Shown here in pieces: positions 21,150 through 34,617 of a stretch of 64,000 bases of DNA. The number at the start of each line of letters is the position of its first letter. The first letter of the stretch is position 1. The notes under the pieces were generated by a model that made no database searches, was not told the origin of the DNA, and saw only the letters and a program-made list of their open reading frames with translations. A program made the translations under genes and the position numbers. Origin of the DNA: Verrucomicrobiota bacterium (GTDB taxonomy: Bacteria > Verrucomicrobiota > Verrucomicrobiia > Limisphaerales > UBA9464); assembly GCA_017309115.1 (NCBI GenBank), contig JAFLEF010000005.1:1-64000 (forward strand), in the 5' to 3' direction.

Positions 21150-21755
21150 ACTCCTCGGCCCTTGCCCGGTGGCGACCATGGAGACCACACAGCTCGCGTG
21201 TCGGGCGGCCACCCACCGGCCAACAGCTGATGCCCTCATTCGCGAGACAAAATCACTCTTCGGCGAGGATCGATCCTGAGGTCCCCAGCATTCCGAACGG
21301 AACTGCAGAATTTGAGTGAAGTTGTTAGTCCGCCTTGGAGTTTGGAAATAATATCTGAAAGGTTCCTAATCGCTTACCTGACGGGTGATCGAAGCGCCCC
21401 AAGAGCGAGGCCAGAGTGAATCACAACCGAACGAAGTTCGAGAGAAAGGGAAAAAGGGCTTGCTTTAAAACAGTATAACGCAAAGCCTCAATATAACCCT
21501 CCAAACTCAGATGCTACTGGTACAGTTCTCCTCTTCCCTGCATTCGCACTCCGACCGTACCCGGGTGACCACCCTCGACTTGCCGATTTTGCCGGCAGCA
21601 AGCGCACGCCCTCCCGCTCGTACCGCATGCTTCGTATCGCCCGCGCGCCCGCAAAACGATTTCGCTCCGCCAGCAGAACGTAATCAGCGCCAGCCCCTGG
21701 TGGGATTGGCGCCGGCTTGGCGGCCACGTGCTGTCCAGCGGAGCGAAACTTGAGC
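21150..21755. other. Noncoding gap before the HAF exoprotein gene
   Basis: About 600 bases with no supported gene and a lower GC share than the neighbours around 21300-21500. An A/T-rich stretch with CTTGCTTTAAAAC lies near 21456. This resembles a -12 element, but GG lies eleven rather than ten bases before the GC, so it is not called as a promoter. Bases 21510-21700 hold short open frames without family resemblance; they may be gene debris. Confidence 0.6.
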
Positions 21756-24755
21756 ATGAATAAACAATCGACGCCCATAGGCAAGTGGCTTATCGCAACG
21801 GTCCTCGGCTGGCTGGCACTCCTCCATGTTTCGGCAGCCCCCAAAAAAGTACTGTTCTACGGTCCCACCCACGCTTTCGGTGGAGTGGCGGAGACCTTAA
21901 TCAACAACAACTCCACCGAGTTCTACGCCATCGGCTCAGGCTCGGAAATCTGGTCACCCGGAGACATCAATCCTGCTAAAGATTGGAACCAGAAGACCAA
22001 GGTACACTTCGAGGCCTTTGATGTCATTGTCATCGGAGATCCAGGACAAGCCGGGGTGGATTCCGCCTTGTTAACCGGAGCCATTGTCAATCGTTCGGTC
22101 TGGACGCCAACCATCACTGGCAATGTTGTGATCGTCGCCGGCGACCCAGAATATCATAACGGAGCCTCAGGTGCGGCCGAACTCATTGGACAGGCGATCC
22201 GCTTCGCTGCTGACGGCTCCGGGCGCGGGCTTTACGTTGCTTCCGGCAACCTATCCCCGCACGAAAGCCCGCTCGACCCGCAGAAAAATGCTCTGGCGCA
22301 TCTGCTCTCGGAGTTCGGGCAGTTCAAGTTGGTGCATGACTGGGGCGAGGCTGTACGGAAGATTGGCAGTCTGCCCATTCTGGACTGCCTGACCGAAGTT
22401 GATTTGAGCGGTTGGGGTTCTTCTGCTCATGGGGGATTTCACGACTGGCCGGCTGCGTTCACCCCATTCGCTTTGGTGACGGATATCCCAATTCATCGCT
22501 ACACTCCGGCCAACAAGCTCCCGGCAGGCATATCGGGTTTGGTTCATATTCTGGTGGGCCAGGGCAATTTAAAGACCTACTCAGCAACGCCGGTTCTCGG
22601 CGGACGGCTAATCGGAACCCAGCATTCTGTGACTGTGCGTTACCTCAATCCCAATGGCACCGGCATTTCCGGAGCGACCATTGTATTCGACGTTACTGAT
22701 GGTCCCAACTCAAGCCAAGGACCAGTCAATCGTACCACCGACGCCAGCGGCACCGCTACCTGGACCTACACCGGCTCCAACACAGTGGGGCGCGACACCA
22801 TCACCGCGTCACTTTCGGGTTCTGGGTGTCAGCCATCCGCCACTGTTTGGTGTGACTGGTCGGACCAACTTGTGACCATCAGCGCGACCGACGCGATCGC
22901 GCAAGAGCCAACCTTTTCGGGAGGCCCAGCCAACACAGGCACCTACACGATTTACCGGTCGGGATCTACGAGCGGTGAACTGACGGTCAACCTGAGTCTC
23001 GCGGGCACCGCGCAACCGAACTTTGACTACTCTGCCGTGACTTCGGTCACTTTTAGCTCTGGGCAGACCAGTCGCACAGTGACCCTATCACCGCTCTTCG
23101 ATCAAATTCCGGAAATCGTGGAAACTGCAGTCGCCCAGATTATCCCGGATGAGTACGGCCTCTATGCCGTGGGTTCTCCGGGCACGGCAACCGTGAATAT
23201 CACCAGCCATCAGCAGGTCTTCGTCACGGTAACGGTACCGGATAGTTCCATGGATGAAGGCGCTTCCAACCCAGGCACCTTCCGGGTGAACCGCAGTTCC
23301 TCCAGCGGCCAGCTTACCGTGGCAATCCAGTTCTCGGGCACGACCTCGTTTGGGAACGATTTTGTGGTGGATTATCCGGAATTTGCCGGCTCGGTGATTA
23401 TGGAGGACGGAGTCTCGTATATAGACATCCAGACCTTGGCGATCCCCGACACCCGGGCCGAAGGAACGGAAACCATCGTCCTCAGCGCCTTGCCCTCGCC
23501 CGCCTCGCCCGCGGGCGAGTACATTCTGGGCAGCCCCGCGAGCAACGCCCTCAATCTCGTCGACAACGACTCGGCCACTTATCCGCAGAATGGCTACACG
23601 CTCACCGACTTGGGAGCCGTGAGCAGCACCGGCAGTTTTGCCTATGGCGTGAACTCTCTGTCGCCCAATCCCCACGCAGGTGGCAACGCCCACAGTGTTT
23701 ATCAATCGCCCTACACCTATTGGGTATTGGCCTATCGCTGGCAGAATGGCTCTGCCAACTACCTGATGCCACCTTCCGGCTGGGGAGCCTACTCAGGTCA
23801 CAGCAGTGCGTATGCAGCCAATGACACTGGCATGGTGGTAGGACAGAGCGGCTATTATCAGTCTGGCTACGTCACGCGCGCTACCTATTGGTCCGGGGGC
23901 TACACCACCGCCAACCAACTTGCCCCACTCCATACCGCCAACACGCTCGACAATTACGCTTTGGACATCAACCAGCGCGTCAGCGGCAAGGGCGGTTTGA
24001 TCGTCGGCCAGTCCATCCGGAGCAATGGGAAATTCCATGCCGTGGCGTGGATTCCCAACGCCAGCCTCAACTACAGCGGCGCGGTGGACCTCGGAGATTT
24101 GGCTGACGGTTCCAAGCACAGCCTCGCCGCCGCCATCAACGATTTTGCCCAAGTGGTCGGCCGTTCCCAAATCAGCTCCGGCAACAACTACCACGGATTC
24201 ATCACCCGCAGTCAGCAAAATGGCTCTAATGGTAACCAGTGGGAACCGGAAGCGCTATCATCATTCCTCGACGACATGGGCACCGCCTCATTGATTGAGG
24301 CACACACGAGCGAATTCAACGACATCAATGCTATCGGAGAGGTGGTGGGGCGAGGCCACACCGCGTCTGGGCAGATACAGGCGATCTACAAGGTGCCCGA
24401 TACAGACAAAAACCTGGGCTACTACGATTTGGGCGTGCTGGGATTCGGCACGCCGGATGCCGGAACGGAGAGCGTGGCCCACGGCATCTCGGCCAACGGC
24501 ACAATTGTCGGCCAGTCTCGATTAAAGGTAAGCGGCAACCAAGTGTGGCGGGCGGTGGTGGTGAAGAACGCGGGCAATCCGGGTTCTCAGCCGCTGGTGA
24601 ACCTGAACTCGCTGGCCTATACCACCGGCAGCACGCTGGCCACGTCGGCAGGTTGGACCCTACTGAGCGCCGAGCGGGTGAACGCCCAGGGTGTGATCGT
24701 GGGTTACGGCACGAAAAGTGGCCAGAATCGTGCCTTCCTGCTCACTCCTCGCTAA
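21756..24755 (+). CDS. Large secreted protein with Ig-like, Calx-beta and HAF repeats
   Basis: A 999-aa exoprotein. After the signal peptide (residues 1-28) comes an uncharacterised domain to about 290, starting KKVLFYGPTHAFGG. A bacterial Ig-like domain (about 298-370, GISGATIVFDVTDGP ... TDASGTATWTYTG) follows. Two Calx-beta domains (about 373-485 and 490-605) are marked by GELTVNLSLAGTAQPNFDY and GQLTVAIQFSGT. From about 610 to the end are HAF repeats, e.g. LTDLGAVSSTGSFAYGVNS, GVLGFGTPDAGTESVAHGIS and VNAQGVIVGYGT. Calx-beta domains bind calcium and often serve adhesion; HAF repeats are of unknown function. The ATG at 21756 follows GGAG. No CTERM anchor is present. Part of the 3' end was copied downstream. 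Confidence 0.88.
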   Translation: MNKQSTPIGKWLIATVLGWLALLHVSAAPKKVLFYGPTHAFGGVAETLINNNSTEFYAIGSGSEIWSPGDINPAKDWNQKTKVHFEAFDVIVIGDPGQAGVDSALLTGAIVNRSVWTPTITGNVVIVAGDPEYHNGASGAAELIGQAIRFAADGSGRGLYVASGNLSPHESPLDPQKNALAHLLSEFGQFKLVHDWGEAVRKIGSLPILDCLTEVDLSGWGSSAHGGFHDWPAAFTPFALVTDIPIHRYTPANKLPAGISGLVHILVGQGNLKTYSATPVLGGRLIGTQHSVTVRYLNPNGTGISGATIVFDVTDGPNSSQGPVNRTTDASGTATWTYTGSNTVGRDTITASLSGSGCQPSATVWCDWSDQLVTISATDAIAQEPTFSGGPANTGTYTIYRSGSTSGELTVNLSLAGTAQPNFDYSAVTSVTFSSGQTSRTVTLSPLFDQIPEIVETAVAQIIPDEYGLYAVGSPGTATVNITSHQQVFVTVTVPDSSMDEGASNPGTFRVNRSSSSGQLTVAIQFSGTTSFGNDFVVDYPEFAGSVIMEDGVSYIDIQTLAIPDTRAEGTETIVLSALPSPASPAGEYILGSPASNALNLVDNDSATYPQNGYTLTDLGAVSSTGSFAYGVNSLSPNPHAGGNAHSVYQSPYTYWVLAYRWQNGSANYLMPPSGWGAYSGHSSAYAANDTGMVVGQSGYYQSGYVTRATYWSGGYTTANQLAPLHTANTLDNYALDINQRVSGKGGLIVGQSIRSNGKFHAVAWIPNASLNYSGAVDLGDLADGSKHSLAAAINDFAQVVGRSQISSGNNYHGFITRSQQNGSNGNQWEPEALSSFLDDMGTASLIEAHTSEFNDINAIGEVVGRGHTASGQIQAIYKVPDTDKNLGYYDLGVLGFGTPDAGTESVAHGISANGTIVGQSRLKVSGNQVWRAVVVKNAGNPGSQPLVNLNSLAYTTGSTLATSAGWTLLSAERVNAQGVIVGYGTKSGQNRAFLLTPR

Positions 24756-24784
24756 AACATTCCAGCCATGTGCCCCTGGCGAGC

Positions 24785-25289
24785 CACACCATCACCTACC
24801 TCTCCCCCGTCGGGGGAAAGGGCTGGGGTGAGGCGGTACACATCCGCCTTTACCCTGATTGAGCTGCTGGTGGTGATTGCGATCATCGCGATTCTCGCCG
24901 GGCTGCTATTGCCCGCGTTGGCCCGCGCTAAAGAGCGGGCCAACGCGGTGCTTTGTCTCAACAATCTCAAGCAACTGCACCTGGGGTGGTTCCAGTATGC
25001 CGAAGAACACGGCAAGGTGCCGCCGAACGACGACTACGGCCTGGGCAACCCGCAGCACAGTTGGGCCGGCAACGTGATGTCGTATGAGGAGGTGGTGCAG
25101 GCCCCCATCACGGAGTCCACCAACGTGGCGGTGATGTTTCAGCGGACCAACGGGCGGATCGGTCCCTATGTCGGCGCGCCCGGACCCTTTCGCTGCCCAT
25201 CTGACAAGTCGTATGTACTCTTGGCGGGAAAGCGGCACGCCCGGGTGCGTAGCTATTCGATGAACATGTTCATCGGCGAAAGCACTCGT
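24785..25289 (+). repeat. Near-identical 505-bp direct repeat, unit 1
   Basis: Matches 25763-26267 with seven differences in 505 bases by direct reading. It starts 43 bases before the GTG of the first prepilin-like gene and ends after the codons for GEST. Beyond this point the two copies diverge clearly. The inner part is also shared with the truncated third copy at 26645-26905. Confidence 0.9.
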
Positions 25290-25637
25290 CGGCCAAACCT
25301 GCGGCTACGTTATCACTATACCCTGGACGACTTTACAGTGCCGGGCCCAGCAGAGACGTTTGTCTTCCTCGATGAACATGAGGACTCCATCAACGACGGT
25401 CACTTTCTGATCGCCTACGATCCCACCATCACGAGAACCGGCTGGGATGATGTACCTGCCAGCAGGCACAATCGGGGCTGCCAATTCGTCTTCGCCGACG
25501 GTCACGCCATGCGGCACCGCTGGCAGGACCGGCGGACCGTTATGCCGGTGACCAGAACCCGAAAGATCGGAATTGCTCAACCAAACAGTCCCGATCCTCG
25601 TTGGCTCAACCAGCATGCCAGCGCTCCGTCCAACTGA
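24828..25637 (+). CDS. Prepilin-like protein, tandem copy 1
   Basis: A 269-aa H-X9-DG type prepilin-like protein. A short leader (VRRYTSA) precedes the methylation/cleavage site and helix [20 protein letters not shown]. Then come [25 protein letters not shown] and the C-terminal [10 protein letters not shown] of this family. The GTG at 24828 gives a normal leader with GGGGGAAAGGG before it; an in-frame ATG at 24768 would add 20 residues of Pro/Ser-rich sequence. It lies 72 bases after the HAF exoprotein stop and probably shares its transcript. It would be cut by a prepilin peptidase and anchored in the inner membrane or a pseudopilus. Confidence 0.9.
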
Positions 25638-25652
25638 CCACGTGGGTACTAC

Positions 25653-25755
25653 GTCATTGGTGGAGGCGCACACGAGCAAGTTAAAGTTAAACGACATTAA
25701 CGCCGTCGGAGGGGTGTTGTTCACGTCGGTGGGTTGGTGAACGCCCAGGCTATGC
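25653..25755 (+). pseudogene. Decayed fragment of the HAF exoprotein 3' end
   Basis: Two blocks resemble the end of the upstream exoprotein gene: 25653-25716 against 24288-24345 (shared CACACGAGC and AACGACAT(C/T)AA) and 25722-25755 against 24641-24695 (shared CACGTCGG, GGTTGG and GAACGCCCAG). The pieces between are missing, and the last ~90 bases before the prepilin gene are reduced to about 12. It marks the left part of a duplicated exoprotein-prepilin unit. Confidence 0.75.
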
Positions 25756-25762
25756 GCACCTG

Positions 25763-26267
25763 CACACCATCACCTACCTCTCACCCGTCGGGGGAAAGGG
25801 CCGGGGTGAGGCGGTACACATCCGCCTTTACCCTGATTGAGCTGCTGGTGGTGATTGCGATCATCGCGATTCTCGCCGGGCTGTTATTGCCCGCGTTGGC
25901 CCGCGCTAAAGAGCGGGCCAACGCGGTGCTTTGTCTCAACAATCTCAAGCAACTGCACCTGGGGTGGTTCCAGTATGCCGAAGAACACGGCAAGGTGCCG
26001 CCGAACGACGACTACGGCCTGGGCAACCCGCAGCACAGTTGGGCCGGCAACGTGATGTCGTATGAGGAGGTGGTGCAGGCCCCCATCACGGAGTCCACCA
26101 ACGTGGCGGTGATGTTTCAGCGGACCAACGGGCGGATCGGTCCCTATGTCGGCGCGCCCGGACCCTTTCGCTGCCCAGGTGACAAGTCGTATGTGCTCTT
26201 GGCGGGAAAGCGGCACGCCCGGGTGCGTAGCTACTCGATGAACATGTTCATCGGCGAAAGCACTCGT
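25763..26267 (+). repeat. Near-identical 505-bp direct repeat, unit 2
   Basis: Partner of 24785-25289. Differences include TCT versus GGT in the codon pair after CGCTGCCCA, while the first ~395 bases carry only three substitutions. Confidence 0.9.
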
Positions 26268-26612
26268 GGCCCTGACCTGCGGCTGCGCTATTACCACTCG
26301 CTCGACGATTTCACGGCACCTGGTCCCGCGGAGACGTTTGTGTTCCTGGACGAGCACGAGGACTCCATCAACGACGGGTATTTTCTAGTTGGAACAACCG
26401 GGGCGAGACAGGCCGGTTGGAACGACGTTCCAGCCAGCCGCCACAGCCGCGGCTGCCAGTTTGTTTTTGGGGACGGACACGCCTATCGGTGCCAATGGAG
26501 GGATCGCCGCACCGTTCAACCGGTGACGCGGGCGCGGAAATTCGGGCTGGTGCAGGCAAACAACCGGGATATCCATTGGGTGCATGATCATGCTTCCGCT
26601 CCAGCGAAGTGA
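25806..26612 (+). CDS. Prepilin-like protein, tandem copy 2
   Basis: A 268-aa paralogue of the preceding gene. The first ~150 residues are almost identical to copy 1 (the leader and helix are the same). The C-terminal ~115 residues differ, for example [14 protein letters not shown] against [15 protein letters not shown]. The closing family motif is kept as [21 protein letters not shown]. The GTG at 25806 corresponds exactly to the start chosen for copy 1. The two proteins thus share a constant assembly part and vary in the exposed domain. Confidence 0.9.
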
Positions 26613-26905
26613 GGTGGGGAGGGACCGGTTGTTTCTGGCTTTCTCCCTGATTGAGCTGCTGGTGGTGATTGCGATCATCGCGATTCTCGCCGGGCTGCTA
26701 TTGCCCGCGTTGGCCCGCGCTAAAGAGCGGGCCAACGCGGTGCTTTGTCTCAACAATCTCAAGCAACTGCACCTGGGGTGGTTCCAGTATGCCGAAGAAC
26801 ACGGCAAGGTGCCGCCGAACGACGACTACGGCCTGGGCAACCCACAGCACAGTTGGGCCGGCAACGTGATGTCGTATGAGGAGGTGGTGCAGGCCCCCAT
26901 CACGG
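26584..26905 (+). pseudogene. Prepilin-like protein, truncated tandem copy 3
   Basis: The frame starts at an ATG inside the end of copy 2 (another ATG at 26590) and enters homology at 26645 with [14 protein letters not shown]. It matches copy 1 with one difference in 261 bases up to 26905 (EEVVQAPIT). Homology stops abruptly; the frame then runs on to 27243 antisense to the permease gene, which is not meaningful coding. The variable C-terminal domain and the H-X9-DG motif are absent. The break lies 28 bases from the stop of the convergent permease gene. Confidence 0.85.
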
Positions 26906-26933: not shown

Positions 26934-29492
26934 CTATTGGGTTCGCAAAGCCACCATGGGATCGACCCGGCTCGCCCGTCGGGCGGGCAGCCAGCAGGCC
27001 AGAACGGAGGCCAGGGCCAAAATCAGCGGCGCCACGGCGAAGACCACCGGATCAAAGCGCGGTACTTCGAAGAGGAAGCTCGAGAGCACCGAGGCCAAGC
27101 CCAAAGCCAGGACCAAGCCCAGCCCCAATCCCGCCGCCGTCAGTTGCAATCCCTCCCGCAACACCATTCCCAGAACGTCCGTCTGGCCGGCGCCCAGAGC
27201 CATGCGAATGCCAATCTCCCGCGTGCGCCGCGCCACCGCGTAGGCCTTCAGGCCGTACACCCCGATTACCGACAGCATCAGCGCAATCGCGGCAAAGACG
27301 CTGAACAGCGCCGCGCCCACCCGTACCATCCACAGCGGACCATTTCGTTCGAAGTGCGTGCGGAGGGAATGCAACGCGAGAATCGGCAACTGGGCATCCA
27401 CCTTTTGCAGTTCCGCCCGCACCGCCGCCAGCAGCGTGGCCGAAGCCACACCCGGCGCCGGAGTCACGTGCAGATGCTGCGAGGACTGGTAATTCTGACC
27501 CAGGGGCACGTACACCCGATACTGATCCCCGCGATCAAACAGATCGGTCTTCAACGTGGGCACCACACCCACCACTTCCAGGGTCTCTCCGGTTTTCGCC
27601 GGAGCGTCTCCGCGAATTCCCACGCTGCCACCCTCTGAACCTTCGCCCACGGCAGCGGTGAACTGGATCTGGCGACCCAGCGGATCCTCACCCGGCCACA
27701 GCTTCTGCGCGAGGTCGGTGTTGATGATCGCCACCCGCGGACCGTTGGTGGATGCCACTTCGGCTCGGACAAACTCCCGCCCGCGCACCAACCCCACGCC
27801 CAACGATTCGAAGTAGCCCTCACTGATCACATTGAAGCCGCTGCTGAACGCCTTGCCCTGCGCCACCGTCGCGTCCTTCGAAGCGGGTTCCGCCGGGGCA
27901 CCTCCACGTTGGACCGACTGCCCGAGCTGAACGTCTCCAAATGGAACCGTGGCCGCCAAACTCGCCGTTCCCACACCGGGCAAACTCCGCACCCGATCGA
28001 GCAGTGTCAGAAACACCTGGCGACCGCGCGCCTCGTCGTAACCCGCCATCTGCGCATCGCTGTGCAGGATGAATCCCCGATCCACGTTGAAGCCTGGATC
28101 GCTGCGCAGGGCATTGATCGCGCTCCGGGTGAACAATCCCGCCGCCACCAACAGCGTGAGCGACAGCGCCACCTGGCCGATCGCCAGGAGATTGCGCGGC
28201 GTCCAGAAGCGGCCGCGGAAACTCTCGCCGGTGCCTTGATCCTTGAGATCCGAATTCACATCCAGGCCGGTGAGCCGCCACGCCGGTCCCACGGCAAAGA
28301 AGACGGTCGCCAATCCGCAAAAGCCCAGAGTTGCTACAAGTACGACGGGTTCGAAGGGCGAACTGAAAACAATCAGCACCGGCGCCAGTCCCTGCAGCGA
28401 GCCCTGCAGCCCGCGGGTGGACCACGTGGCAAGGAACAGTCCCAACAGACCGCCCAAAAGCGAGAGCAGCAGCGCTTCGGTAATCAATTGGCGGAAGATC
28501 CGGTGGCGCTGCGCTCCGAGGGCGAGTCGAACGGCGATTTCCTTCCGTCGGGAGGCGCCCCGGGCGAGCATCATGTTGGCCAGATTCAGGCAGGCGATCA
28601 GCAGCACCACACACGACATCGCCAACAACAATCCGCCCAGCACGGAGAACTGGCTTCCGCGCTGCGGACGATCCGTGATCGCCATTCGCGGCAACGGCGC
28701 CACGCTGAATTGCTGGTGGGCATTCTCCTTCGGATACGCCTTGGCGAGTTGATCCGACAAGACCTGCAACCGCGCCGTCGCCTCCTCCATCGTCACCCCG
28801 GACTTCAGCCGCGCCACTGGCATCATTGCCCCCCGACTCCGATCCTCCAGGCCGTTCCGACCGCCGTTCATGAAGGTGTTCGCCAACTGATCCGAGAGTC
28901 CCAGGGGCAACAGAACCTCCGGTGCCACCAGCGCCATCGTCCCGGTGAATCCTGGAGGAGTCACGCCCACCACCGTGCACAACAGCGAGTTGATCTTCAG
29001 CGTGCGACCCACCAGACCGGGATCGCTGCCGTGCTTCCGCCAGAAGTCGTGGCTGACAATCACCACCGGCACGGCCTGCGTCTCCTCTTCCGGAAGAAAG
29101 GCCCGACCCAGCGCCGGCGTGACGCCCAACGTGGAAAAGTAATTCGCGGTCACCAGCATTCCCATGGTCCGGCGGGTGGTGTCCCCTTCCTTAATCCCAA
29201 TCACGGTGGGCATTTGTCCCAACACATCGGTGAACACCTCATTCCGATCCCGCAGGTCGCGGTAATTCAGATACGAGAACGCCCGATAGTCATCCGGCCG
29301 CGACGTGTCCCGACTAAACACCGACACCAATTCTCCCGGCGCTCGGACCGCCAGGGGCTTCAACAGGATGTTGTTCACCAGGGTGAACATGGCGGTGTTG
29401 GCGCCGATCCCCAGGGCCAGGGTCAACACGGCCACAGCGGTAAAGCCCGGGTTCTTCACCAGCTGGCGAAACGCGTAACGGACGTCAGTCAT
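26934..29492 (-). CDS. ADOP/MacB-like ABC transporter permease 2
   Basis: An 852-aa inner-membrane permease with the duplicated MacB-periplasmic-core plus FtsX layout of ADOP (acidobacterial duplicated orphan permease) proteins. Each half has one N-terminal helix, a large periplasmic domain and three C-terminal helices. It starts [20 protein letters not shown] and ends [17 protein letters not shown], both family hallmarks; [18 protein letters not shown] and [17 protein letters not shown] are the cytoplasmic coupling segments. It is the last gene of the leftward efflux operon, 41 bases after permease 1. It needs the separate ATPase encoded upstream. Its end is intact despite the nearby duplication scar. 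Confidence 0.92.
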
Positions 29493-29533
29493 AGCGTGTC
29501 AGGAGCAACAGAAATTCAGCAGCCGTTCAAATG

Positions 29534-31933
29534 TCATTCGGTGCGCAGGGCCACCAGCGGATCCACCCGAGCCGCGCGTCGCGCCGGGATCCAGCACGCC
29601 ACCCAAGAGACCCCGATCAGAATGACCGTGACCCAGCCGAACGTGGGCGGATCGTGGGGTTGAATCTCGTAGAGCAATCCGGCCAGGAACCGAGCCAGTC
29701 CAACGCCGCCTAAGAGACCGAGCGCAACGCCCAGGAAGGTCAGCACCATCCCTTGGTGAATGACCAGTCGGCGAACGTCACTCCATTGCGCGCCCAAGGC
29801 CATGCGAATGCCGATTTCCTGGGTGCGTCGGGAGACCGACCAGGCCATGACGCCATAGATGCCCACCGCCGACAGCACGAGTGCCAAGGCTGAAAAGGCA
29901 CCGAGAAGAACCGCCTGAAGCCGACGCTGCGCCAGGGTGTCATCGACCATGGACTCCATGGATCGCATCTGATCCAGCGCCTGTTCTCCGTCGATGGTCA
30001 GCACCGCCCGCCGGACCGGGCCCTCGAGCGTTTCGGCGCTTCCGCGCGTTCGAATTACCAGCGACGCGAGCCCCCAACACTGCTGCGACATCGGCATAAA
30101 CATCTGGGGTTCCACCGGCTGGGTCAGCCCGCCGTCGCGGATATCCCGCACCACGCCCACGATCTGAATCCAGTTGTTGGTTCCATCCAGACTCACCCGG
30201 GCGCTGGGCACCTGACCCGGCGCTCCGCCCGGAAAGAAGGTGCGCAGAAAGGATTCGTTCACGATGACCACCCGGGCTGAATCAGGTCCGTCACGAAGCT
30301 CAAAGTCCCGGCCACCCAGCAGTGTGGCGCCGAGCGTGCGAAAGTATCCGGGGGTGATTTGCCGGTAGTTGGCGTTGTCGGGTTCGTGCGCCGCCGGAGC
30401 GGGTCGACCTTCGATCCGAAAGGTGACCTTGGATTGCATTCGTCCAAACGGCAGACCGAACACGGCCGCGGCGGATTCCACACCCGGCAGGGCCGCCACC
30501 TGTTCCACCATTCCCAAGATGGCCTGCGCCTTCTGCGGCTCGGTGGGATACTTCTGATCGGTGAGCGCCAGCGTGGCGGTGAGAAGGTGCTCGGTTTTAA
30601 ATCCCGGATCCACCCGCTGCGCCCGGGAGAAACTGCGCAACAGCAGTCCCGCGCCCACCAGCAGAATCAGGGCGAGTGCCACTTCCACCACCACCAGCAC
30701 GTTGCGCAGTCGGTTCCGCCGCAATCCCTCGGTGGTGCCGCGGCCGCTGTCCTTGAGCACTTCCGTGAGATCCGTCCGCCAGACCTGCCAGGCCGGGACC
30801 AAACCGAAGCCGAGGCCGGTCAGCAGGGAAACTCCCAGCGTGAAGGCGAGGACGGATCCATTGATCTGTCCGGTGCTGAGCAGATGGCCTTCGGGCAACC
30901 AACCGACAAATCCCGTCACCCCCCACCAAGCCAGCAGGATTCCCAGCACACCTCCCGACAGCGACAGCACCAGGCTCTCGCTCAAGAGCTGACGAATCAC
31001 ATCCCCCCGACGGGCCCCGAGCGCCGCCCGGACCGCAAACTCGCGAGCCCGCGCCGCCGAGCGGGCCAACATCAGATTGGCCACGTTGGCGCAGGCAATC
31101 AGGAGCACGCAACCCACCGCGCCGAGCAGAATCAGGAGCGGCAACCGCAGTTCGCCGACCAGTTCCTCGCGCAGTCCAATCACCGTCACTCCGAAATCCC
31201 GAACATCCTCGAACTGTTCGCCCAAGCGGCGCGCGATGCCGTTCATCTCGACCTTCGCCTGTTCCAGGGTTACCCCAGACTTGAGCCGGCCCATCACCCA
31301 CCAACTGTGATTGCCCCGCAGCTCCAGTTCCTCCGGCTCAAATCCGGCCGGAGTCCACACTTGGGTGTTCCGGGAAGGAAGTCGCAGCTCACCGGGCATC
31401 ACCCCAATCACCGTGTAGCTCCCGCCATCCAACAACAGGGATCGCCCCAACACTCCCGGATCGGCTCCAAACGAACTGCGCCAATAACTCTCGCTGAGCA
31501 GCACGACGAAGTGTTTTCCGAAGGCTTCCTCCTCCGCGGTGAAGGTCCGACCGAGAAGCGGGTTAACGCCCAGCAGGGAAAACAGGTTGGCCGTGACGCG
31601 CGCCCCAGTAATTCGCCGGGGATCTCCCTGACCCGTGAGATTGTATTCGGCGTGACGGAGACCGGCGAGGCCCTCGAAGGAAGCGCTCTGACGTTGCCAG
31701 TCGATCAAGTTGGGCACCGCAACGGGAACCCGATCCACACCTCGCGCGGGAACGGATTCGTGCACCTGCACAAGCCGATCAGCCTCGCGATACGGGAGAG
31801 GTTGGAGCAGGAGACCGTAGACTAGGCTGAAGATTGCGGTGTTGGCGCCGATGCCCAACGCGAGCGTGAGTATCGCCACCGCGGCAAAGCCGGGTGATTT
31901 GGCCCACTGACGCAGTATCTGACGGAGGTTCAT
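29534..31933 (-). CDS. ADOP/MacB-like ABC transporter permease 1
   Basis: A 799-aa paralogue of the next gene with the same duplicated permease layout. Markers are LRQWAKSPGFAAVAIL at the N-terminus, AREFAVRAALGARRGDV in the middle, and [17 protein letters not shown] and PARRAARVDPLVALRTE at the end. The two permeases differ strongly in their periplasmic domains, so they may form a heterodimer or handle different substrates. The ATG at 31933 is chosen since the 30 codons upstream are not conserved in type. It lies 49 bases after the VOC gene. Confidence 0.92.
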   Translation of the reverse strand: MNLRQILRQWAKSPGFAAVAILTLALGIGANTAIFSLVYGLLLQPLPYREADRLVQVHESVPARGVDRVPVAVPNLIDWQRQSASFEGLAGLRHAEYNLTGQGDPRRITGARVTANLFSLLGVNPLLGRTFTAEEEAFGKHFVVLLSESYWRSSFGADPGVLGRSLLLDGGSYTVIGVMPGELRLPSRNTQVWTPAGFEPEELELRGNHSWWVMGRLKSGVTLEQAKVEMNGIARRLGEQFEDVRDFGVTVIGLREELVGELRLPLLILLGAVGCVLLIACANVANLMLARSAARAREFAVRAALGARRGDVIRQLLSESLVLSLSGGVLGILLAWWGVTGFVGWLPEGHLLSTGQINGSVLAFTLGVSLLTGLGFGLVPAWQVWRTDLTEVLKDSGRGTTEGLRRNRLRNVLVVVEVALALILLVGAGLLLRSFSRAQRVDPGFKTEHLLTATLALTDQKYPTEPQKAQAILGMVEQVAALPGVESAAAVFGLPFGRMQSKVTFRIEGRPAPAAHEPDNANYRQITPGYFRTLGATLLGGRDFELRDGPDSARVVIVNESFLRTFFPGGAPGQVPSARVSLDGTNNWIQIVGVVRDIRDGGLTQPVEPQMFMPMSQQCWGLASLVIRTRGSAETLEGPVRRAVLTIDGEQALDQMRSMESMVDDTLAQRRLQAVLLGAFSALALVLSAVGIYGVMAWSVSRRTQEIGIRMALGAQWSDVRRLVIHQGMVLTFLGVALGLLGGVGLARFLAGLLYEIQPHDPPTFGWVTVILIGVSWVACWIPARRAARVDPLVALRTE

Positions 31934-31982
31934 ACGACTCTGAAGTTGGCAGGACTGATCGGAGGGGAATTCGGGTATGGAT

Positions 31983-32378
31983 CTACCGCGGCAACGGAGT
32001 TGCGAACCGAAGGCCGAACCCATCCGGGTCGGCGATCATGAAATCGCGCATCCCGTAGGGTTTGTCGGAAAGGGGATCCAGCACCCGCACCGGCAGCCGG
32101 GACACCTGCCGCCAGAGCGCATCGACGTCGCGAACCAGGATTCTCACGTTGGATCGCGGACTGTCATCCAACGCTCCCGCGTGAACCCAGCGCGCCACCG
32201 GCGGCTGATACAATCCAAGCACCGTCTGATCCCAGGCCAGCTCGGCAAACCGCGTTCCCGACCGCCGCACCTGGAAGCCCAGCGAACAGTAGAACCGCCG
32301 GGAACGATCCACATCGCGCACGAAGAGCTCCAGCATCAGCTGCGGTCCGGGCGCGGGCGGGGGCTTCGGCAAGGCCAT
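31983..32378 (-). CDS. VOC (glyoxalase/bleomycin-resistance-like) family protein
   Basis: A 131-aa single-domain protein of the vicinal-oxygen-chelate fold. Markers are LMLELFVRDVDRSRRFYCSLGF, then SNVRILVRDVDALWRQV, and the closing MRDFMIADPDGFGLRF. The fold includes metal-dependent lyases and antibiotic-binding proteins; which applies is unknown. It sits inside an efflux operon, between the ATPase and the permeases. The ATG at 32378 is chosen as the start nearest the domain. An alternative ATG at 32456, 14 bases after the ATPase stop, would add 26 residues. Confidence 0.8.
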   Translation of the reverse strand: MALPKPPPAPGPQLMLELFVRDVDRSRRFYCSLGFQVRRSGTRFAELAWDQTVLGLYQPPVARWVHAGALDDSPRSNVRILVRDVDALWRQVSRLPVRVLDPLSDKPYGMRDFMIADPDGFGLRFATPLPR

Positions 32379-32469
32379 CGTCACGGCGTCGCCAGAATCC
32401 AGCGCCTCGGGCCAAAGATCCGTTTTCCAGGACGAGTTGGGAGCTACAGCGACCATGACGGGAGTGCGC

Positions 32470-33183
32470 TCAACGAGCTTCCACGAGTTCCTCCACGATC
32501 CGACCGTCGAACAGATGAATCTGGCGATCGGCGTGGCGGGCAAAGCGGGGATCGTGGGTCACCATGCAGATGGTGGCGCCTTCGCGGTGCAGTTGTCGGA
32601 GCAGGTCCATCACGGCCTCCCCGTTTTTCGAATCGAGGTTACCGGTCGGTTCGTCGGCCAGCAGGATGCTCGGCTTGCCACCCAGGGCGCGGGCCACGGC
32701 CACGCGCTGTTGCTGACCGCCGCTGAGCTGACTTGGATAATGCCGGAGACGATGGCTCATCCCGACCTTCTCCAGGGCTTCCATCGCCCGTTCCTTGCGC
32801 TCCCCGGCGCTGAGCCCGCGATAGGTCAGCGGCAGTTCCACATTCTCGAAAACGGTCAGATCACCGATGAGATTGAAGCTCTGAAAAATGAAGCCGATCT
32901 CGCGGTTGCGGATGCGGGCGCGGGCGGAGTGATCGAGATTGGCGACCTGGTTTCCATTGAGCGTGTAGGTGCCGCCCGTGGGCGTGTCGAGCAGACCCAG
33001 GATGGCCAGCAACGTGGATTTGCCACAACCGGACGGGCCGGCAATGGACACGTATTCGCCCTGGGCAATCTCGAGATGAATCTCCGACAAGGCGTGGGTC
33101 TCGACTTCATCCGTGAGGAACACCTTTTGGATGCCCTGAAGGTGAATGAGCGGTGACGCGGCGGATTGAGGTTCGGCAGTCAT
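32470..33183 (-). CDS. MacB/LolD-like ABC transporter ATP-binding protein
   Basis: A 237-aa cytosolic ATPase that should power the two ADOP permeases. Walker A is GPSGCGKST near residue 50, the Q-loop GFIFQSFNLI, the signature LSGGQQQRVAVARAL, Walker B ILLADEPTGNLD, and the H-loop MVTHDPRFA. The extended FQSFNL/LTVFENVELP stretch is typical of the LolD/MacB group, which drives mechanotransmission rather than transport through the membrane domain itself. It lies 78 bases after the adaptor gene. Confidence 0.93.
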   Translation of the reverse strand: MTAEPQSAASPLIHLQGIQKVFLTDEVETHALSEIHLEIAQGEYVSIAGPSGCGKSTLLAILGLLDTPTGGTYTLNGNQVANLDHSARARIRNREIGFIFQSFNLIGDLTVFENVELPLTYRGLSAGERKERAMEALEKVGMSHRLRHYPSQLSGGQQQRVAVARALGGKPSILLADEPTGNLDSKNGEAVMDLLRQLHREGATICMVTHDPRFARHADRQIHLFDGRIVEELVEAR

Positions 33184-33261
33184 GGCGTGGTCTATCGGAA
33201 CGCTTCGAGTCTCAGAAATTAGGGACCGGGTTGGCGGTGTTCGGAGGCAGTTGAACCCAGT

Positions 33262-34617
33262 TCAGTCGAGTCGGACCCGGTCATGTCCATCCCATTGGCT
33301 CATGTCGGAAAGGATGACCTTGTCACCGACCTGGAGGCTGTTCCCGACGACCTCGATGGTGCTGACGGAACTCCGACCGAGTTTGACCGGCACCCGCACG
33401 GCGAACTTGCCGCCGGGTTGAACGCGGAACAGTCCGACCGTGCTGTCGGGCTGACCCTGCACGGGACGGCCGACGTACACGACGTCATCGAGCCGTTCCA
33501 GTTCGATGGTGCCCTCGACGCTCAGGTCCGGGCGCGCCCCGCGGGGTAGGGGGCCTTCCAGCTTCACCTCGACCAGGACAGTGCCGTTCAACACTGCCGG
33601 GTCCACCCGCACAACGCGGCCGGTAACCACGCCATTGCGGGTGTCGATGGATGCTAGTTGGCCCAGCGCGACATCCCGCGCCTGAGTCTCCGCGATTCGC
33701 ACCTCGGCCTTGAGACGCGAGGGCACCACCACCTTGGCCAGCGTGGCACCGGGAGTGACGCGTTGGCCTGCCTGCAGTACCTCGCGGTCCCCCAACTGCG
33801 TCAGGACTCCGTCAATCCCGGCGCGCACGCGCAAATTCTCTACCTGCCGTTGCCGCAGATCCCGCAGCGCCCGGAGCTTTTCCCCCTCGGCTTGCTGCAC
33901 GGCCAGCTGAGCCGTGGCCGATTCTGCGGCGAACTGCAGGCGCCGTTCCTCAATGGCCACCCGGGCCACCAGGTCCTCCGCCTTGGCCTTCGACTTCTCC
34001 AAAATGATCTTTGGCACCAAGCCGTCAGCCGCCAGAATTTCATCGGCATTGGCTTCGAGCAGCGCTTGCTTTGCATCGGCCCGAAGCGTGGCGAGAGCCG
34101 CCTCCTGCCCCAGCCGATCGCTCTCCAACTGCACCCGGAGCCGTTCCAGCTGGGCGATTGCCGACTTCGCCTCCCACTCCGCGTCGAAAGCACTTTGCTT
34201 CAGCTCGGGATTGCTGAGTTCCAACACCACCGTGTCGGCTGTCACCGCCGCGCCGGGTTGAACCAGAATCCGTTCCACCTGCCCCCCGGTATCGGCTTGG
34301 ACGTACTGGATCTGCTCCGGAACCAGGGTGCCGTTGCCCCGCACTTGACGGAGCATCTGGCCGCGCTTGACGGTATCGAACCACGGATTCTCGACCCTTG
34401 GAGCCGCCGGTTCGAGCCGCGCCAGAACCACCGAGATTGCTCCCACCACGGCGACCGCGGCGAGGCTGAGCAAGATCTGCTTGCGACGACGTTTGCGGGC
34501 GAGATCAGGTCGGGCGATGTCCATTCCAGTGCTGGCCGGGGTAAATCCCGAGGACTTCGGGGGAGTCGGCCGAACTGTGGATGGCGTGATTTCGCCGCTG
34601 GTCGCAAGCCGGTTCAT
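33262..34617 (-). CDS. HlyD/MacA-family periplasmic adaptor
   Basis: A 451-aa membrane-fusion protein. A basic N-terminus (ARKRRRKQ) precedes one membrane anchor (ILLSLAAVAVVGAISVVLA). The lipoyl half-motifs flank a long alpha-helical coiled-coil hairpin (about residues 130-270, rich in A, E, Q, L and R). It should bridge the inner-membrane permease to an outer-membrane channel, as MacA does. No TolC-like gene is in the window. The start lies three bases after the stop of the small upstream gene, indicating translational coupling. Confidence 0.9.
   Translation of the reverse strand: MNRLATSGEITPSTVRPTPPKSSGFTPASTGMDIARPDLARKRRRKQILLSLAAVAVVGAISVVLARLEPAAPRVENPWFDTVKRGQMLRQVRGNGTLVPEQIQYVQADTGGQVERILVQPGAAVTADTVVLELSNPELKQSAFDAEWEAKSAIAQLERLRVQLESDRLGQEAALATLRADAKQALLEANADEILAADGLVPKIILEKSKAKAEDLVARVAIEERRLQFAAESATAQLAVQQAEGEKLRALRDLRQRQVENLRVRAGIDGVLTQLGDREVLQAGQRVTPGATLAKVVVPSRLKAEVRIAETQARDVALGQLASIDTRNGVVTGRVVRVDPAVLNGTVLVEVKLEGPLPRGARPDLSVEGTIELERLDDVVYVGRPVQGQPDSTVGLFRVQPGGKFAVRVPVKLGRSSVSTIEVVGNSLQVGDKVILSDMSQWDGHDRVRLD

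Follow-up and report, generated by a model that had tools for sequence, protein, structure and literature searches.

Tandem H-X9-DG prepilin-like genes with near-identical front parts and diverged back parts beside a HAF-repeat gene in a Verrucomicrobiota draft genome

Genes and features at the locus

The window considered here, the whole 64,000-nucleotide stretch that was analysed, lies on a contig labelled C57 of a draft assembly of 7.53 Mb in 111 contigs. On its forward strand, 21717–24755 encodes a HAF-repeat/DUF3466 protein with a Calx-beta domain (1012 residues counted from the first possible start). The product scores 42.1 bits against NCBIfam HAF_rpt (cut-off 22.65) and 30.9 bits against Pfam DUF3466 (cut-off 25.1), and Pfam Calx-beta is also above its cut-off. 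This gene is the upstream partner of a prepilin unit: 3′ of it, on the same strand, lie two complete H-X9-DG prepilin-like genes and then a truncated third. The first copy (W1, 24785–25637) runs from its mature Phe codon at 24849 to 25637, and the second (W2, 25763–26612) from 25827 to 26612. Both match Pfam N_methyl (PF07963; 30.4 bits in each, cut-off 21.2), SBP_bac_10/DUF1559 (PF07596; 37.5 and 35.4 bits, cut-off 23.3), and NCBIfam H-X9-DG (TIGR04294; 20.8 and 20.3 bits, cut-off 19), and both pass the cut-off of NCBIfam IV_pilin_GFxxxE. The third copy (W3, 26645–26905) reaches 19.6 bits for N_methyl, under the cut-off, and falls just under that of SBP_bac_10. Candidate starts for W1 are a GTG at 24828, which would give a seven-residue leader and has a purine-rich stretch 5′ of it, and an ATG at 24768. 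In copies 1 and 2 a GC-rich element (24798–24833 and 25776–25811) overlaps the leader and what may be the ribosome-binding site.

The two complete copies are almost identical in front. Between 24785–25289 in copy 1 and 25763–26267 in copy 2, a recount gave 7 differences in 505 bases (24805, 24824, 24906, 25200, 25201, 25217, and 25256 in copy 1 numbering), the same figure as in the initial annotation of this DNA, and the copies share an identical run of 293 bp. This tract takes in the leader and ribosome-binding segment and the N-terminal helix and ends at codon 147. Identity falls at once from 25290, which bears out the abrupt switch described earlier. At silent sites the boundary is sharp, with 2.0 differences at 79.3 sites in codons 31–145 (pS 0.025) and 67.4 at 83.0 sites beyond (pS 0.812), and a clean stretch like that observed was reached in 0 of 2000 trials in which the silent sites were shuffled. 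Because the silent sites are clean and shuffling did not reproduce this, the identical front part is not explicable by protein constraint. The tract stops after GES-T/S-R, at the start of a loop whose length varies across the family. Its left end is only 64 bp ahead of the mature Phe codon, and the 15–20 bp immediately to the left align poorly between the copies. When the genome was searched for the shared leader pattern with up to two mismatches, it was present at copies 1 and 2 only, and a DNA search gave no others; a dispersed repeat as the origin of the shared leader was rejected on this basis.

The sequence between the complete genes (25640–25749, forward strand) is recognised by DNA match as what is left of the HAF gene's 3′ end, diverged and with an internal deletion. 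Positions 25640–25719 match 24274–24347 at 71% (E = 9e-7), and 25736–25749 match 24677–24690 over 14 exact nucleotides, a match that is weak alone (E = 0.07) and lies in the same order as the first. This remnant suggests that the duplicated unit consisted of the HAF 3′ end together with the prepilin gene and that the duplication is old. Homologous sequence that has diverged lies on either side of the tract. Such a tract of low divergence (98.6% identity) between diverged flanks is the signature of later gene conversion, and the proposal in the initial annotation that recent gene conversion homogenised the 5′ ends is well supported for copies 1 and 2, where a tract with pS 0.025 lies between back parts with pS 0.81 and a HAF remnant at 71%.

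The diverged 3′ parts, 25290–25637 in copy 1 (115 codons, including the H-X9-DG motif) and 26268–26612 in copy 2, align end to end. They carry the same H-X9-DG motif and are 66.7% identical in amino acid sequence, with 0.20 replacement differences per site (dN 0.23) while dS is saturated. Among the proteins compared they are mutual best matches, the next being a paralogue in the same genome (54.5/57.4%). What had been described as clearly different C-terminal domains is therefore one H-X9-DG domain in two versions that are 67% identical and more closely related to each other than to any other protein compared. Swapped 3′ domains were rejected on this ground and because the 5′ tree and the 3′ tree each join W1 with W2. 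No sign of diversifying selection on the 3′ part was seen, with dN at 0.23 against saturated dS.

Copy 3 is identical to copy 1 at 260 of 261 positions and to copy 2 at 259 of 261, and the earlier description of it as the constant part only, with one difference in 261 bases, stands. It has in-frame leader residues of its own, AFS ahead of LIELL. In a codon alignment its homology stops after about 88 codons, and the still-open frame continues across the end of an ABC-permease gene, antisense to it. We read W3 as a truncated copy that took part in the homogenisation; it is possible that it is a pasted piece of 261 bp.

Each of the three copies carries a strong intragenic hairpin on the forward strand, a 16-bp stem with one mismatch and a TAAA loop, at 24913–24948, 25891–25926, and 26705–26740. 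These are the only hairpins with a 16-bp stem in the window, none appeared in 10 shuffles, and the RNA fold z score is −4.4. Neither the paralogue A described below (RNA fold z −1.7) nor the folded part of the prepilin gene of genome G012 (z 0.5) shows an evident hairpin. In copies 1 and 2 a perfect 18-nt palindrome (25258–25275 and 26236–26253) lies close to the switch point, its end 14 nt ahead of it; there are three perfect 18-nt palindromes in the window, compared with 0–2 in 10 shuffles.

Related copies in the same genome and in relatives

The 5′ part has 109 matches in the window's genome. From the fetched stretches, 96 prepilin-like genes were taken by script, with motif and length limits that lost some. 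Gene pairs that are more than 85% identical across at least a 250-nt stretch (>250 nt) fall into four groups among these 96 genes: the window's copies, a set that we call A, B, and X, and two at contig ends. A, B, and X are further copies in a second array set on contigs C101 and C79. Between A and X, pS is 0.137 in the 5′ part and then 0.868 across the 37 codons seen past the drop; in the alignment, this drop is one or two codons at most from the place at which W1 and W2 switch. A and B separate sooner, past about codon 63. Beyond the loop A and X are similar again, when X is continued with the end of C80. That end overlaps the end of C79, where a gene is cut, by 24 exact nucleotides and is likely to be the continuation of X.

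The two groups at contig ends are not counted as cases, since they may be strain-redundant contigs or duplications. One is the C52/C78 pair (L076/L078), with 96.5% identity over 828 nt. A different protein of about 281 residues is also encoded there, with a prepilin gene after it and a second copy, incomplete, where the contig stops; the two contig ends are 86% alike over 2.3 kb, and, read by eye, C-terminal parts are near-identical and N-terminal parts clearly different. In the other, the prepilin gene at the end of C30 (L073) matches that on C104 (L060) at 93.7% over 668 nt, is cut inside the H-X9-DG motif, and then continues in unrelated sequence near the contig end. This could be either a truncated copy or a contig-end artefact.

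In searches of 39 and 321 genomes, both including the window's own, the best-scoring matches outside that genome were 47–49% identical at the amino acid level among the matches listed, so no close orthologous locus was found in relatives. The unit itself recurs. A duplicated HAF 3′ end adjoins a prepilin gene in six draft genomes from four families of one order: the window's own (at the window and on C101/C79/C80), G147, G012, G161, G079, and G085. In G012 (CAIWAH010000048.1), HAF is followed by prepilin genes P1 and P2 and then by a 397-bp copy of the HAF 3′ end at 90% identity and 68 bp resembling the start region of P2. The order in G147 (WGOC01000041.1, RI_55) is HAF, P1, partial HAF, P2, P3. 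G161 has two HAF 3′ remnants, one ahead of each prepilin gene. G079 and G085 have a single prepilin gene on the contig concerned: in G079 it follows HAF, and 108 bp of the HAF 3′ end are repeated exactly where the contig stops; in G085 it stands between a HAF remnant and a long HAF frame. Short pieces of HAF 3′ end plus leader are also found in G012 and on C80 of the window's genome. A profile made from five HAF C-termini and run on 44 sources gave matches in 14 of them, 12 distinct, five of those 12 by construction; the 30 sources with no match to this profile include C101 and C80, whose HAF remnants are short and were recognised through DNA similarity to the remnant on C79.

Contigs stop inside or beside HAF-prepilin units at L328 (C95 of G079), L059 (C79), L344 (C80), and L058 (C101), one of them in the exact 108-bp HAF repeat. 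Because draft assemblies break at these arrays, array copies may be undercounted.

Where HAF-linked arrays occur elsewhere, divergence between neighbouring copies is uneven in G012 and G147 and not clearly uneven in G161. Nucleotide identity for the G012 pair is 79% in codons 41–147 and 61% after, and between P1 and P2 of G147 it is 84% in front and 63% after codon 147; the loss is 18 and 21 identity points, respectively, compared with 34 for W1/W2. Silent divergence (pS, front/back) is 0.025/0.81 for W1/W2, 0.14/0.87 for A/X, 0.57/0.80 for G012, 0.45/0.68 for G147 P1/P2, 0.63/0.86 for G161, and 0.76/0.73 for G147 P1/P3, the last pair being saturated in both parts. dN rises from front to back in W1/W2, A/X, G012 (0.10/0.34), and G147 P1/P2 (0.09/0.34), with no rise in G161 (0.17/0.14), whose identity profile is flat, or in G147 P1/P3 (0.53/0.45).

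Nucleotide identity was compared in 29 cases, of which 21 concern other loci once 3 from the window, 3 from L030, and 2 from G012 (one a duplicate) are set aside; L281 and L291 yielded no pair. None of the 19 of these 21 comparisons that have a 3′ figure loses 15 or more identity points, the largest loss being 9, at L282. The fair controls, those starting above 75% identity, number 3 of the 19 (L274, L278, and one of L280) and all come from one genome. For pS, front/back values at other loci are 0.64/0.73 (G131), 0.73/0.72 (G027), 0.53/0.56 (L274), 0.49/0.53 (L280), 0.58/0.77 (L282), 0.67/0.76 (L283), and 0.56/0.50 (L289), and L278, from another family, has the opposite gradient (0.63/0.29). 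The gradients of G012 and G147 are weak evidence, because their silent rise of 0.22–0.23 is equalled by G161 and nearly by L282, which lies outside the HAF arrays; moreover, in G012 and G147 the conservation of the 5′ parts is only relative. The sharp switch is thus clear only in the window's genome, in W1/W2 and A/X, and G012 and G147 are suggestive. Concerted evolution was also sought in tree topology for G147 and G146; a first tree was suggestive, but the AU tests, with p values of 0.30–0.39, did not discriminate between the alternatives.

Proposed history and competing explanations

On comparison of the sequences, we consider it probable (about 0.78) that an old tandem duplication was followed by gene conversion between the copies that overwrote their front parts. 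The unit, the 3′ end of the HAF/DUF3466 exoprotein gene with the H-X9-DG prepilin gene downstream of it, would have been duplicated in tandem long ago, and the copies would then have diverged. Later gene conversion would have replaced about 505 bp in one of the complete copies (ribosome-binding region, leader, helix, and the first 147 codons) with the corresponding stretch of its neighbour, and the same sequence would also have filled 261 bp of the truncated third copy. The variable-length loop after codon 147 is where pairing between the copies should be poorest, and it could have acted as the barrier to the tract, with ordinary homologous recombination as the presumed agent. The outcome would be a common membrane/assembly half and C-terminal halves that drift independently. 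As the tract includes the candidate GTG start, the seven-residue leader, and the purine-rich stretch, conversion would maintain the signals for translation along with those for assembly. Partial concerted evolution through gene conversion between tandem paralogues leaves a sharply bounded tract, low in silent divergence, with diverged sequence on either side, and the window has the same tract pattern in a different gene family and in a HAF-prepilin unit. The case is new, the process is known, and no new mechanism is needed.

Unequal crossing-over or replication template switching could instead have fused a fresh constant segment to an older 3′ part, with the 261-bp piece pasted in as copy 3. 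That copy 3 ends in unrelated sequence fits such an event, as do the short pieces of HAF 3′ end plus leader in G012 and on C80, and the 16-bp-stem hairpins, which the window holds only in its constant part, could promote template switching. However, exchange of a unit would be expected to bring the HAF remnant along, whereas the left end of the tract lies close before the mature Phe codon, and the AFS that copy 3 keeps in frame before the tract is what a converted older copy would show. We regard this explanation as unlikely. An artefact, in which the collapse of a short-read assembly graph gave constant parts that only seem identical, has to be weighed in a draft of 111 contigs with a 293-bp identical run between copies 1 and 2 and with sister arrays that break contigs C79, C80, and C101. 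It is made very improbable by the seven differences inside the tract, by three separately flanked copies on one contig, by the intact frames of both complete genes, and by the related gradient in independent assemblies.

The initial annotation had also raised recombination that changes the displayed domain, and the constant 5′ and variable 3′ parts, together with a switch whose aligned position almost coincides in two of the genome's array sets, could be taken for a dedicated system in which exchangeable 3′ cassettes are displayed behind an unchanging assembly part, in the style of a shufflon or of pilE/pilS. The evidence turns against this. No recombinase domain was found in the 8 neighbouring proteins scanned against Pfam. 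Of the 14 inverted-repeat pairs in 14000–40000 none joins the 3′ parts, and in four the constant part forms a palindrome with itself. When the genome was searched with the 3′ part of copy 2, the 30 matches included no independent 3′-only copy: 29 have a 5′ match adjoining, and the remaining one is the C80 end. Silent 3′ cassettes of the pilE/pilS type were rejected on this result. The partial copy at the locus is the constant part, and each 3′ part has the other as its nearest relative, at a low dN and a saturated dS. Dedicated cassettes are the least likely of the explanations weighed here.

HAF-prepilin arrays could more generally be a slow, homology-driven diversification device, in which conversion keeps the front half uniform, the loop blocks the tract, and the back halves specialise. 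Arrays with conserved fronts and diverged backs in three genera (weak in two) and a nearly identical switch point in two array sets fit this idea. If true, each back half could become adapted to its own partner or HAF substrate. We consider so general a role unlikely, the more so as silent-site gradients of similar size are also seen in G161 and L282.

Known systems and possible function

The locus resembles Neisseria pilE/pilS in its constant N-terminal part and in the proposed non-reciprocal homologous recombination between pilin copies (PMC6796969). In that system, as described in the available portion of the same source, none of the silent copies has the constant region, and the expressed gene is the one that receives variation. 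At the window locus, in contrast, the shared part is the constant part, and so is the partial copy. The PilV shufflon of R64/TP114 is likewise a pilin with a constant N-terminal part and differing C-terminal parts and, in the part of the source available, relies on invertible cassettes, sfx sites, and rci (PMC9045228). No such elements were found at the window locus (14000–40000 and the 8 neighbouring proteins), and its 3′ parts sit in two complete genes. As far as tested, the locus works like neither system.

By domain architecture W1 and W2 belong with the DUF1559/SBP_bac_10 H-X9-DG prepilin-like proteins of PVC bacteria (PF07596, TIGR04294), a large expanded family. The available sections of one family account report at least 41 prepilin-motif genes per genome in Planctomycetales, most with the second domain, and 91 with both domains in Tuwongella immobilis, where such genes are often flanked by signal-peptide genes and are spread evenly round the genome; 25 of these 91 N_methyl plus SBP_bac_10 proteins were detected, mostly in two detergent fractions (PMC8567305). 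Those sections mention neither HAF-linked tandem arrays nor half-homogenised pairs, unlike what is seen at the window locus. More widely, the literature on the H-X9-DG family and the HAF-prepilin unit, in the portions available, gave no description of HAF-prepilin arrays.

W1 and W2 are probably pseudopilin-like, with the N-terminal helix holding them and the upstream HAF exoprotein as their partner, and they may have a role in secretion or assembly. A rival idea is a solute-binding role: in the part of the source available, DUF1559 is termed a solute-binding family in Rhodopirellula baltica, with genes that respond to salt and heat (PMC2754498). The recurrence of the unit points to joint action of HAF exoproteins and H-X9-DG prepilins. 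A unit of this kind that duplicates in tandem and has its front half homogenised offers a way into the numerous H-X9-DG prepilin-like genes, and the tract indicates which half of the prepilin is kept uniform. Beyond the array, on the reverse strand, 26934–34617 holds two adjacent MacB/FtsX-type permease genes (852 and 829 residues) and an HlyD-type protein at 33262–34617.
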